Origin: Gaiellaceae bacterium
GTDB lineage: Bacteria; Actinomycetota; Thermoleophilia; Gaiellales; Gaiellaceae
Assembly: GCA_026002995.1 (NCBI GenBank)
Contig: BPGK01000001.1
Span: forward strand, 744,001-808,000
Direction: 5' to 3'
DNA length: 64,000 nucleotides
Shown in pieces: positions 42,684 to 45,466 of the stretch. Position numbers and translations under genes: made by a program. Numbering within the stretch: position 1 is the stretch's first letter; each line of letters begins with the position of its first letter. The notes below the pieces were generated by a model, which was not told the DNA's origin, made no database searches, and saw only the letters and a list, made by a program, of their open reading frames with translations.

Positions 42684-42864
42684 ACTCGCTCGGCTTTCCG
42701 GCCTTGCCCCAGTGGCTCGGCTGGATGCCGTGGACGATCACCTGGATGTGCTCGACGGCTGCTCCGCTCGACTCGTGCAGAGCCCGGGTGAGCGCCTCGA
42801 TCATTCTCGGCACGGACTCCTCGGTGACCCGCCGGTCGAAGAGCTTGACCTCGATCAGCGGCAT
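42682..42864 (-). CDS. 4-oxalocrotonate tautomerase-family protein
   Basis: 60 residues starting MPLIEVKLF, so Pro-1 is exposed after Met removal. Arg at the position of 4-OT Arg-11 is kept (RR). The second 4-OT Arg (Arg-39) appears to be Gln in HIQVIVHG, and the C-terminal HFGIGG segment reads HWGKAG. It is likely a tautomerase or promiscuous dehalogenase-type enzyme. ATG is preceded by AAAGGAGG. Paired with the next gene. Confidence 0.88.
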   Translation of the reverse strand: MPLIEVKLFDRRVTEESVPRMIEALTRALHESSGAAVEHIQVIVHGIQPSHWGKAGKPSE

Positions 42865-42893
42865 CGCGCCTCCTTTCGTCGTTGCGCGCGATC

Positions 42894-43109
42894 CTACGCC
42901 GAGGGGCCGGGCGGCATCTGCTCGACCGGCCAGGGCTTGCCGCCGAGACCCCAGTTGCGCGGGTCGTGGCCCTCCACGATGACCCAGGTGTGCTCTCTGA
43001 GCCCCGGGTGCGTCACCTCGCAGAGCGCGTCGGTGAGCTTCTCGATGAGCGCGGCGCTCGTCTCCTCCGACAGGCGGTAGTCGAAGAGCTCGACTCTGAT
43101 GAGCGGCAT
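42894..43109 (-). CDS. 4-oxalocrotonate tautomerase-family protein, second copy
   Basis: 71 residues starting MPLIRVELFDYRL, with Pro-1 and the Arg-11 equivalent. The Arg-39 position appears to be Trp (HTWVIVEG), and the C-terminus is extended (WPVEQMPPGPSA). It lies 29 nt upstream of its 60-residue relative on the same strand with GAGGAGG before ATG 43109. The two could form a hetero-oligomer. The longer ORF to 43907 is a shadow. Confidence 0.85.
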   Translation of the reverse strand: MPLIRVELFDYRLSEETSAALIEKLTDALCEVTHPGLREHTWVIVEGHDPRNWGLGGKPWPVEQMPPGPSA

Positions 43110-43143
43110 CGTGCCTCCTCTCGCATCGGGTTCTCGGCGAGGG

Positions 43144-43157: not shown

Positions 43158-43604
43158 ATGAGGATCCAGCACGTCGGGCTCGTCGTCTCCGACCTCGAGC
43201 GCTCGCGGCGCTTCTACGCCGGCGCGCTCGGGCTCGAGGAGGTGCCGCGGCCTGCGAACTTCGCCTTCGACGGCGCGTGGTTTCGCTTCGGCGGCACCGA
43301 GCTGCACCTGCTCGCCGAGGAGCACACGACGGGCGGTGCCGGCCAGAGGGCGGGTATGGGCGCTGCGAAGGGGATGACGCACCACCTCGCCTTCGAGGTC
43401 GACGACCTCGCCGCGGCGCTCGCTCGGCTCGCGGAGCACGGGGTCGAGCTCGCAGGCGGCCCGATGCCGCGCGGCGACGGCTACACGCAGGCGTTCTTCC
43501 TCGACCCGGACGGCTACGTCCTCGAGCTCTTCGAGCACACGGGCGAGGACCAGGCGGACGCGCCGGAACGCACTCCGGTCGCCGCCTGGCGAGAGGACGA
43601 GTAG
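43158..43604 (+). CDS. VOC-family (glyoxalase/dioxygenase fold) protein
   Basis: 148 residues with two beta-alpha-beta-beta-beta modules: MRIQHVGLVVSDLERSRRFY, GTELHLLAEEH, MTHHLAFEVDDLAAAL and FFLDPDGYVLELFEHTG. Metal ligands His-5, Glu/His in ELHLL, His in THHLAF and Glu in VLELFE are in place. Substrate is unknown; lactoylglutathione-lyase or epimerase activity is possible. Confidence 0.88.
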   Translation: MRIQHVGLVVSDLERSRRFYAGALGLEEVPRPANFAFDGAWFRFGGTELHLLAEEHTTGGAGQRAGMGAAKGMTHHLAFEVDDLAAALARLAEHGVELAGGPMPRGDGYTQAFFLDPDGYVLELFEHTGEDQADAPERTPVAAWREDE

Positions 43605-43657
43605 TCGTCGTCCGGGCGTGCGTCGCTGTCCGTGGCGGGCGTGTGCGCTGCGCGTGC

Positions 43658-43663
43658 TAGGGT
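43658..43663 (+). promoter_or_regulatory. -10 hexamer TAGGGT giving a ~100-nt helicase leader
   Basis: TAGGGT is the nearest good hexamer upstream of the helicase and would start transcription near 43670, leaving a long 5' UTR in a genome where most leaders are absent. Confidence 0.35.
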
Positions 43664-43706
43664 GCGGAGCACGGACGGCGCCCGTCGTCCCGTGAGGTTT
43701 GACTTC

Positions 43707-43770
43707 TTCGGTTCCTCCAGCGGGTCGAGGCAGGCGGATCTCGACCGTTCGAACCGAGGAGTGAACCGAG
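43707..43770 (+). promoter_or_regulatory. Predicted SD-sequestering leader switch upstream of DEAD-box helicase
   Basis: CGGTTCCTCC (43709-43718) can pair with GGAG-U-GAACCG (43758-43768), a 10-bp helix with one bulged U that covers the Shine-Dalgarno GAGGAG and ends 2 nt from AUG 43771. The same CGGTTC can instead pair with an upstream copy of GAACCG (43751-43756), leaving GGAG free. An inner hairpin GGTCGAG/CTCGACC (43723-43729, 43740-43746) fits in the loop of either form. Confidence 0.5.
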
Positions 43771-44961
43771 ATGCAGCAGTCTTTCTCCGAGCTCGGCGTA
43801 TCCGCGCGCATCGTGAGCGCGCTCGCCGCGCACGACATCCATCGTCCCTTCCCGATCCAGGCCAGCGTCCTGCCCGAGGCTCTCGCTGGGCGCGACGTCC
43901 TGGCCAAGGCGCCGACCGGCTCCGGTAAGACGCTCGCGTTCGCGATCCCGCTCGTCGAGCGAATCGACGCCGGCGGGGAGAGGCCGAGCGCGCTCGTGCT
44001 CGTGCCGACGCGAGAGCTTGCGTCGCAGGTCGCCGATGAGATCGTCGCGGTCGCGCCAAGCGGCGTTCGCGTGTCGACCGTCTACGGGGGAGTCGCCCTC
44101 GGCCCGCAGGCGACGCGCGCACGCGCGGCCGACGTCCTCGTCGCCACGCCGGGACGGCTCAACGACCTCCTCGAGCGCGAGGCCGTCTCGCTCGACGCCG
44201 TTCGCGTCCTCGTGCTCGACGAGGCCGACCGGATGCTCGACCTGGGCTTCAAGCCCCAGGTCGACCGGATCGTGCGCCGTGTCCCGCGCGCCCGTCAGAC
44301 GATGCTCTTCTCCGCGACGCTCGACGCGCGGGTGCGCGAGCTCGCACGCGCGTACACGATCGACCCGCTCCGCTTCGACGTCGAGCCCGCGTCCGGCCTG
44401 GAGGGGGCTCGGGTCGAGCACCGCTTCGTCGAGGTGCGGCCGGACACGAAGGTCGAGACGCTCGTCGGGATGCTCGGGGCAGACGGCCAGCGAACGCTCG
44501 TCTTCGTCCGCACGAAGCGTGGCGCCGACCGTCTCGTCCGCAGGCTCGCTCAGCACGGGGTTCGGGCCGTCGTCATGCACGGCGACCTGAGCCAGGCGCA
44601 GCGGGAGCGTGCCCTCGGACGGTTCGAGTCCGGGCAGGCGTCCACGCTCGTCGCCACGGACGTCGCCGCACGGGGGATCGACCTCGCCGATGTCACCCAC
44701 GTCGTGAACTACGACCCGCCGGAGGAGCACGCCGGGTACGTACACCGGGTCGGGCGCACGGGGCGCGCGGGCCGCGGCGGTGTCGGCGTGACGCTCGTCC
44801 TCCCGGAGCAGCGCGAGAGCGTGAGCCGGGTCGCAAGGCTCGCGGGCCAGGCGGAGGAGTTCACGAAGACAGGCCTCGAGCTCGCGCCGCCGAGGCTCGT
44901 GTACTCGTCGCGGCGCGGGCGCTCGAAGTGGGGGGCGCCCCGCCCGGCCCGCAAGATCTGA
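43771..44961 (+). CDS. DEAD-box ATP-dependent RNA helicase
   Basis: 396 residues. Q motif FPIQASVLP, motif I APTGSGKT, Ia PTRELA, Ib TPGRL, II VLDEADRML, III SATL, IV VFVRTKRGAD, V ATDVAARGID, VI HRVGRTGRAG. All are intact. The C-terminal tail is short and basic (SRRGRSKWGAPRPARK). Such helicases unwind RNA in ribosome assembly and cold adaptation and are often autoregulated. The structured leader fits that theme. Confidence 0.95.
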   Translation: MQQSFSELGVSARIVSALAAHDIHRPFPIQASVLPEALAGRDVLAKAPTGSGKTLAFAIPLVERIDAGGERPSALVLVPTRELASQVADEIVAVAPSGVRVSTVYGGVALGPQATRARAADVLVATPGRLNDLLEREAVSLDAVRVLVLDEADRMLDLGFKPQVDRIVRRVPRARQTMLFSATLDARVRELARAYTIDPLRFDVEPASGLEGARVEHRFVEVRPDTKVETLVGMLGADGQRTLVFVRTKRGADRLVRRLAQHGVRAVVMHGDLSQAQRERALGRFESGQASTLVATDVAARGIDLADVTHVVNYDPPEEHAGYVHRVGRTGRAGRGGVGVTLVLPEQRESVSRVARLAGQAEEFTKTGLELAPPRLVYSSRRGRSKWGAPRPARKI

Positions 44962-44965
44962 GGCG

Positions 44966-45466
44966 TCAGGCGGATACGGCGAGCTGCTCGTCGATCCAGG
45001 CGCTCGCCTCCTCGGGATCGACACCGCGCACGACGGAGATCTCGCCGGCGAGCAGATCCCGGGCCTTGACGAGGAGCGCTCGCTCGCTCGCGGAGAGCTT
45101 GGAGGCGCCGGTCGCGGCTGCGGTGCGCTCGCGCCACGTCCCATCGCGGACGAGCTCGGCGAGCTCGAGCGGATCGCCTCGGCGGAGCTTCTCCTGCGCG
45201 TCCTTGAGGCGCTTCGCCCAGACGTCGTCGCTCGTGTCTCCGGGAGCGCGCAGCGTCTTCTGCACGCGCTCGAGCCCGGCCTTGCTCACGAGGGGGCGCA
45301 CCTGCGCTCGCGCGAGCTCGACGGGGAGCGTCACCGAGAGGCCGTTCGCGAGCTCGAGCACGACGACCTCCTGCTCGCGGTCGAGGACGACCCGCTGCTC
45401 TCGGGCGACGACGCGGCCGACTCCGTGTGGGGGGTACGCGATGACGTCCCCGACTTTCAGCTCCAT
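44966..45466 (-). CDS. carD: CarD-family transcriptional regulator
   Basis: 166 residues. N-terminal Tudor-like RNA polymerase-interacting domain: MELKVGDVIAYPPHGVGRVV. C-terminal helical DNA-binding domain has Trp in DDVWAKRLKDAQEKL and ERALLVKARDLLAGEI. CarD stabilises the RNA polymerase open complex, notably at rRNA promoters. It is essential in mycobacteria. TAGGCT lies 6 nt upstream of ATG 45466. It ends 4 nt from the convergent helicase. Confidence 0.93.
   Translation of the reverse strand: MELKVGDVIAYPPHGVGRVVAREQRVVLDREQEVVVLELANGLSVTLPVELARAQVRPLVSKAGLERVQKTLRAPGDTSDDVWAKRLKDAQEKLRRGDPLELAELVRDGTWRERTAAATGASKLSASERALLVKARDLLAGEISVVRGVDPEEASAWIDEQLAVSA

Follow-up and report, generated by a model that had tools for sequence, protein, structure and literature searches.

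A conserved leader RNA preceding DEAD-box helicase genes in Gaiellaceae and more distant Actinobacteriota, with a proposed role in translational feedback

The DEAD-box RNA helicase gene found in the window (the whole stretch of 64,000 nucleotides analyzed here, part of a genome of 2.62 Mb in a single contig) is preceded by a leader that is, on comparative evidence, a widespread RNA absent from Rfam and tied to DEAD-box helicase genes. Four helices of this leader, P1, P2, P3 and P4, are supported by comparison of the sequences of relatives; P4 covers the Shine-Dalgarno sequence (SD) of the helicase gene and P2 is a conserved alternative pairing. We propose, giving this reading an even chance, that the leader (about 100 nt) is a conserved cis-acting RNA setting helicase translation, in which refolding from P2 to P4 would bring about negative feedback and induction in the cold. 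Beyond a few model species, little is understood of how bacteria tune their capacity to unwind RNA. A leader with defined helices and clear mutants that accompanies the helicase gene across distant Actinobacteriota would open helicase autoregulation to direct testing, as well as adding an RNA family to the catalogue. The features of the locus are the following:

43655-43663, + strand: extended -10 element TGCTAGGGT (family consensus TGCTACnnT), from conservation in 74 relatives
43670-43694, + strand: P1, hairpin at the predicted RNA 5' end (CACGGACGGC gccc GUCGUCCCGUG), from covariation (family and class) and strand swap (z -9.7)
43694-43699, + strand: P2 5' strand GAGGUU, from permutation over 101 leaders (z 8.2 for all, 3.3-5.3 de-replicated)
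43709-43718, + strand: P4 anti-Shine-Dalgarno strand CGGUUCCUCC, from sequence, strand swap and covariation
43723-43729, + strand: P3 5' arm GGUCGAG, from strand swap and covariation
43737-43742, + strand: P2 3' strand GAUCUC, whose CUC also closes P3, from loop U invariance, permutation and the class alignment
43740-43746, + strand: P3 3' arm CUCGACC, from strand swap and covariation
43751-43756, + strand: upstream GAACCG copy, the competing strand of an earlier note on this DNA, seen in no other genome that was read
43758-43768, + strand: P4 3' strand, consisting of the Shine-Dalgarno GGAG (43758-43761) and GAACCG (43763-43768), from sequence, strand swap and covariation
43771-44961, + strand: DEAD-box RNA helicase, 396 aa (Pfam DEAD 3.2e-48, Helicase_C 8.1e-31)

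The helicase encoded at 43771-44961 is CshA-like, yet falls under the curated NCBIfam cut-off. It is the only strong DEAD-box helicase match of its genome, the runner-up reaching E 1.4e-10 at 30% identity. The leader sits in the 166 bases that separate the helicase from a VOC/glyoxalase gene (43158-43604), and the covariance model R1 gives this single place in the genome and no second leader. The gene at 44966-45466 (- strand), convergent with the helicase gene, codes for a CarD-like regulator of transcription with the domains CarD_TRCF_RID and CarD_C, and on the same strand as this regulator, at 42800-43110 of the window, lies a tandem pair of similar short reading frames that look tautomerase-family-like by eye. 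The letters of the extended -10 element are 95-100% conserved in 74 aligned promoters (TGCTA columns 97-100%, last T 98%), among which no conserved -35 was found. From the spacing to this element, the RNA is predicted to start near 43670. A transcription start downstream of 43709, which the earlier note had named as an outcome that would speak against a switch, is unlikely because of the conserved extended -10 at 43655-43663.

The complementarity first noticed in this leader, between CGGTTCCTCC (43709-43718) and GGAG-T-GAACCG (43758-43768), is exact, P4 consisting in this genome of 6 + 4 bp with one bulged U, and the inner hairpin GGUCGAG:CUCGACC (43723-43729 with 43740-43746) is likewise present as described. 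Measured only against shuffled versions of itself, the region does not stand out (z -1.5, with 12 of 200 shuffles folding equally well), as expected from its high GC. In an alignment of 62 leaders, the structure made of P1, P3 and P4 pairs 92.9% of cells against 88.2% after shuffling. Doubly changed pairs (12 against 7.3), doubly changed cells (69 against 17.4) and the covariation score (0.172 against 0.095) are raised as well; these values were reached by 0 of 500 shuffles. Since the family alignment leans toward the structure, an alignment-free test was added, in which helix strands are exchanged between sequences and native partners are asked to pair better than swapped ones. The resulting z values within the family were -9.7 for P1, -9.2 for P3 and -4.0 for P4, none of them equalled in 5000 permutations; the portion of P4 outside the SD gave -4.5, and control strand pairs stayed within about +/-2. 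The effect persists after de-replication to 17 sequences, and P4 behaves in the same manner outside the family (class relatives, z -5.2, 0/5000). Whole-pair replacements in P4 can also be seen by eye: CACUCCUU:AAGGAGUG in L033, CGACUCCU:AGGAGUCG in L015 and GUUCCUCCUGU:ACAGGAAGGAAC in L133. Because strand swapping between sequences weakens the pairing, the SD-covering helix is, as far as sequence comparison can tell, not a product of chance, and its recognition in the earlier note has proved sound in both family and class.

The same note had pointed out a direct repeat, GAACCGAG-GAGT-GAACCGAG across 43751-43770, that provides GAACCG at both 43751-43756 and 43763-43768, and had assigned to the first copy a competing helix leaving GGAG free. 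The repeat is indeed present, and none of the other genomes read has it. Two relatives of the same genus (L009 and L010; helicase identity 75% and 72%) and L011 (70%) do not have the upstream copy and keep the SD-proximal one with small changes; the loss of a copy in close relatives is thus the very finding that the note itself had set down as refuting its proposal. In addition, the minimum-energy fold of this genome does use the first copy, with GGAG paired to CUUC, so that both GAACCG registers are modelled to hide the SD. Opening GGAG while keeping the first-copy helix costs about 7 kcal/mol (7.4) at 37°C (-45.5 vs -52.9), and the fold with the noted second-copy helix is 2.8 kcal/mol worse than the best fold at this temperature. 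The idea of a bistable leader controlling the SD therefore holds in part: alternative folds and a helix over the SD are supported, on a wider scale than the note had claimed, and the specific competitor was the wrong one.

In P2, the bases that immediately follow P1 pair with the 3' side of the P3 loop and with the CUC closing P3. As both P2 and full P3 need this CUC, the two are mutually exclusive in the family. In the family core alignment the P2 columns show hardly any variation and no covariation. The U immediately preceding CUC is the same in 62/62 leaders, although formation of P3 leaves it in the loop, and the base next to it is a purine in 58/62, most other loop positions carrying about 0.1-0.5 bit. 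P2 pairing at positions 4-9 stands at 4.38 and falls to 3.69 when the 3' strands are permuted among 101 family and class leaders (z 8.2); after de-replication z is 5.3 with 39 representatives and 3.3 with 18 (7/10000). The swap test for P2 is weaker in family sequences alone (core representatives, z -2.2 to -2.9). When RNAalifold is given the class alignment without prior structure, it returns P1 and P2; this alignment scores 0.366 against 0.211 (0/500 on the main scores) and contains a change from GAGGU:AUCUC to GAGGC:GCCUC. The class relatives were mostly found with R1, a model without P2, and the remainder by protein search. The relatives from elsewhere in the phylum were found with a second model, R2, which contains P2, and the presence of P2 in them is therefore not independent evidence. 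An extension of P2 past its core (P2xa:P2xb) was weak (swap z -1.2 to -1.7) and was rejected.

Fold modelling indicates how the two pairings might follow each other. When leaders are truncated directly behind the 3' strand of P2, this helix has a probability above 0.5 in 79 of 80, partly by construction because the 3' arm of P3 is missing there; in full leaders P3 has a mean probability of 0.86 and the SD is hidden (<0.1 accessible) in 69/80. Mean SD accessibility is 0.49 with P2 held (open) against 0.07 in the closed fold, which is better by about 7 kcal/mol. The class set hides the SD less fully, with a mean accessibility of 0.14 and 10 of 21 leaders below 0.1. Between the two forms stands a barrier of about 17 kcal/mol at 37°C, rising to 23-24 at 10°C; these are direct-path values from models that score no pseudoknots. 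These calculations suggest an early-forming, more open fold that would need help to close. In the nascent RNA, P2 would form first, holding the anti-SD strand off the SD; once the SD has emerged, the leader would refold across the high barrier to the closed form with P3 and P4. Helicase activity or warmth would hasten this step; with little helicase, or at low temperature, the open form would persist and more helicase would be made. A DEAD-box helicase being a natural helper for closing, negative feedback with cold induction is proposed, and suggests that the cell meters the helicase through the shape of its own mRNA. Cold-shock-protein genes beside the helicase in some relatives, and the precedents of the cspA mRNA and of CrhR (see below), speak for this proposal. 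Which fold is open and which closed, what triggers the change and in which direction the feedback runs are what we infer, the links to temperature and to the helicase being indirect.

The helicase is present in 84 of 101 relatives by protein search, that of Solirubrobacter taibaiensis (L038), one of the named relatives that point to the class, showing 54% identity to the window's. The upstream regions in the family follow one order: the -10 TGCTACnnT, P1, GAGAU, a pyrimidine-rich strand with GUUCCUCCUU, P3 (UUCGAG..CUCGAA), AAGGAGUCGAAC and the start codon. R1 matches 78/103 genomes of the family and 80/129 of the order, and the loci with readable downstream sequence precede the helicase, the exceptions being L194 and L197 (contig ends) and L198. 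The latter (G105:C154:3746-3888) is a truncated leader with P1 and the anti-SD strand, about 2.8 kb from an intact copy; the gene it precedes has no relation to the helicase, and the truncated leader looks like a relic of a duplication. An upstream open reading frame within the leader was considered and rejected, as the spacing between conserved elements differs by 1-2 nt from one relative to another and no frame is thereby preserved. We would also like to note a record titled as a Bifidobacterium breve MAG (L039), whose helicase shares 53% identity with the window's; the name is probably wrong because both its helicase and its leader are Solirubrobacter-like. Outside the family, R1 adds about 20 leaders from 399 class genomes searched, and the helicase lies directly downstream in 18 of 20 class stretches (L236 and L250 are without a helicase match in the stretch examined). 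These leaders have in common P1, GUGAGGUUC and P3 with the loop UCAGUCGAAUCU, and hide the SD with other letters, for example GUUGGCGCU:AGCACCAAC in L249. R2, built without family sequence, finds the window leader at E 2.3e-4, and its matches extend into genomes of other classes of the phylum; 15 of 18 R2 stretches contain the helicase, L261-L263 being without it, and the region directly preceding the match in L259 has no typical leader. A search with the 4227 models of Rfam 15 gave nothing above the gathering score in the window, sub-threshold searches with the leader of the window and those of five relatives brought up no credible match to the leader, and no leader of this kind was found described in the literature searched.

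The partner of P2 lies within the P3 loop in the class relatives, as it does in one group of paralogues (L127, L196 and others), and P2 and P3 can therefore coexist there as an H-type pseudoknot. The strict exclusion of open and closed forms may thus be particular to this family, and P2 may in those leaders be part of a compact domain and not a rival fold. The paralogous group (L127, L196, L201-L206) is a second helicase paralogue in one genus with a shorter leader variant; the predicted full-length fold of L203, and partly that of L127, retains P2 and has a more open SD. A wider reading, which we put forward only tentatively, is that of an uncatalogued, phylum-wide leader class whose pseudoknot directly senses RNA-helicase activity: the helicase would remodel its own leader, so that the cell would gauge its unwinding capacity with an RNA. 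The conserved pseudoknot-like domain and the depth of its conservation could also fit a riboswitch-like sensor, in which a pseudoknotted P1-P2-P3 domain would bind a small molecule or protein and P4 would control translation. Such a sensor could draw on the H-type pseudoknot order of the P2 and P3 strands, the position of the anti-SD strand within the long first loop and the good conservation of the class loop motif UCAGUCGAAUCU; however, the loop sequence drifts within the family, and, with the exception of one relic and a few matches that are weak or cannot be read, the leader is found only before DEAD-box helicases and with no metabolic pathway, which makes this explanation unlikely.

We judge it similarly improbable that cold alone, independently of the helicase, favors the P2 form. 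Such a thermosensor has a precedent in the cspA mRNA of Escherichia coli, which takes up different, mutually exclusive conformations at 37°C and at 10°C (PMC4166951), and would agree with the slower modelled refolding at 10°C and with the cold-shock genes near the helicase in relatives: a cold-shock-protein gene adjoins it in seven genomes of six genera (L118, L120, L130, L036, L164, L020 and L162), and the genome studied here has two cold-shock-protein genes in total. However, the modelled equilibrium favors the closed fold at 10 and 37°C alike, and temperature could therefore act only via the rate. The earlier note's suggestion of a temperature switch is unlikely in its simplest form, a leader that melts with heat, as the SD is paired in modelled folds throughout 5-75°C. 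Zipper RNA thermometers, in which a complementary upstream strand likewise covers the SD, were rejected as a description of the helicase leader for the same reason; moreover, most thermometers are not conserved in sequence and shape (PMC4166951), whereas the helicase leader is. It is very unlikely that the leader is a constitutive brake merely keeping helicase translation low, with P2 a folding intermediate without a control role: the closed fold does dominate in 69/80 leaders and the P2 columns of the family core are invariant and not covarying, but P2 pairing is kept across relatives despite changes on both sides, which a mere intermediate would not need.

The proposed feedback resembles two known systems in different respects. 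The DEAD-box helicase CrhR of Synechocystis is autoregulated in a temperature-responsive manner, through a mechanism that its authors call an open question; in the passages of that report consulted no leader switch of such a kind is described, and the organism belongs to a different phylum (PMC3485376). The E. coli cspA thermosensor (RF01766) has two mutually exclusive folds deciding translation of a cold-response gene (PMC4166951), to which the two folds predicted for the helicase leader, differing in SD exposure, would correspond, but the cspA structure reaches into the coding region whereas the helicase leader is confined to about 100 nt. The RF01766 model gave no match in the window, and none in 43600-43800 up to E 10; its only match, of 30 bits (cut-off 78), falls on a cold-shock-protein gene beside the helicase of a relative.
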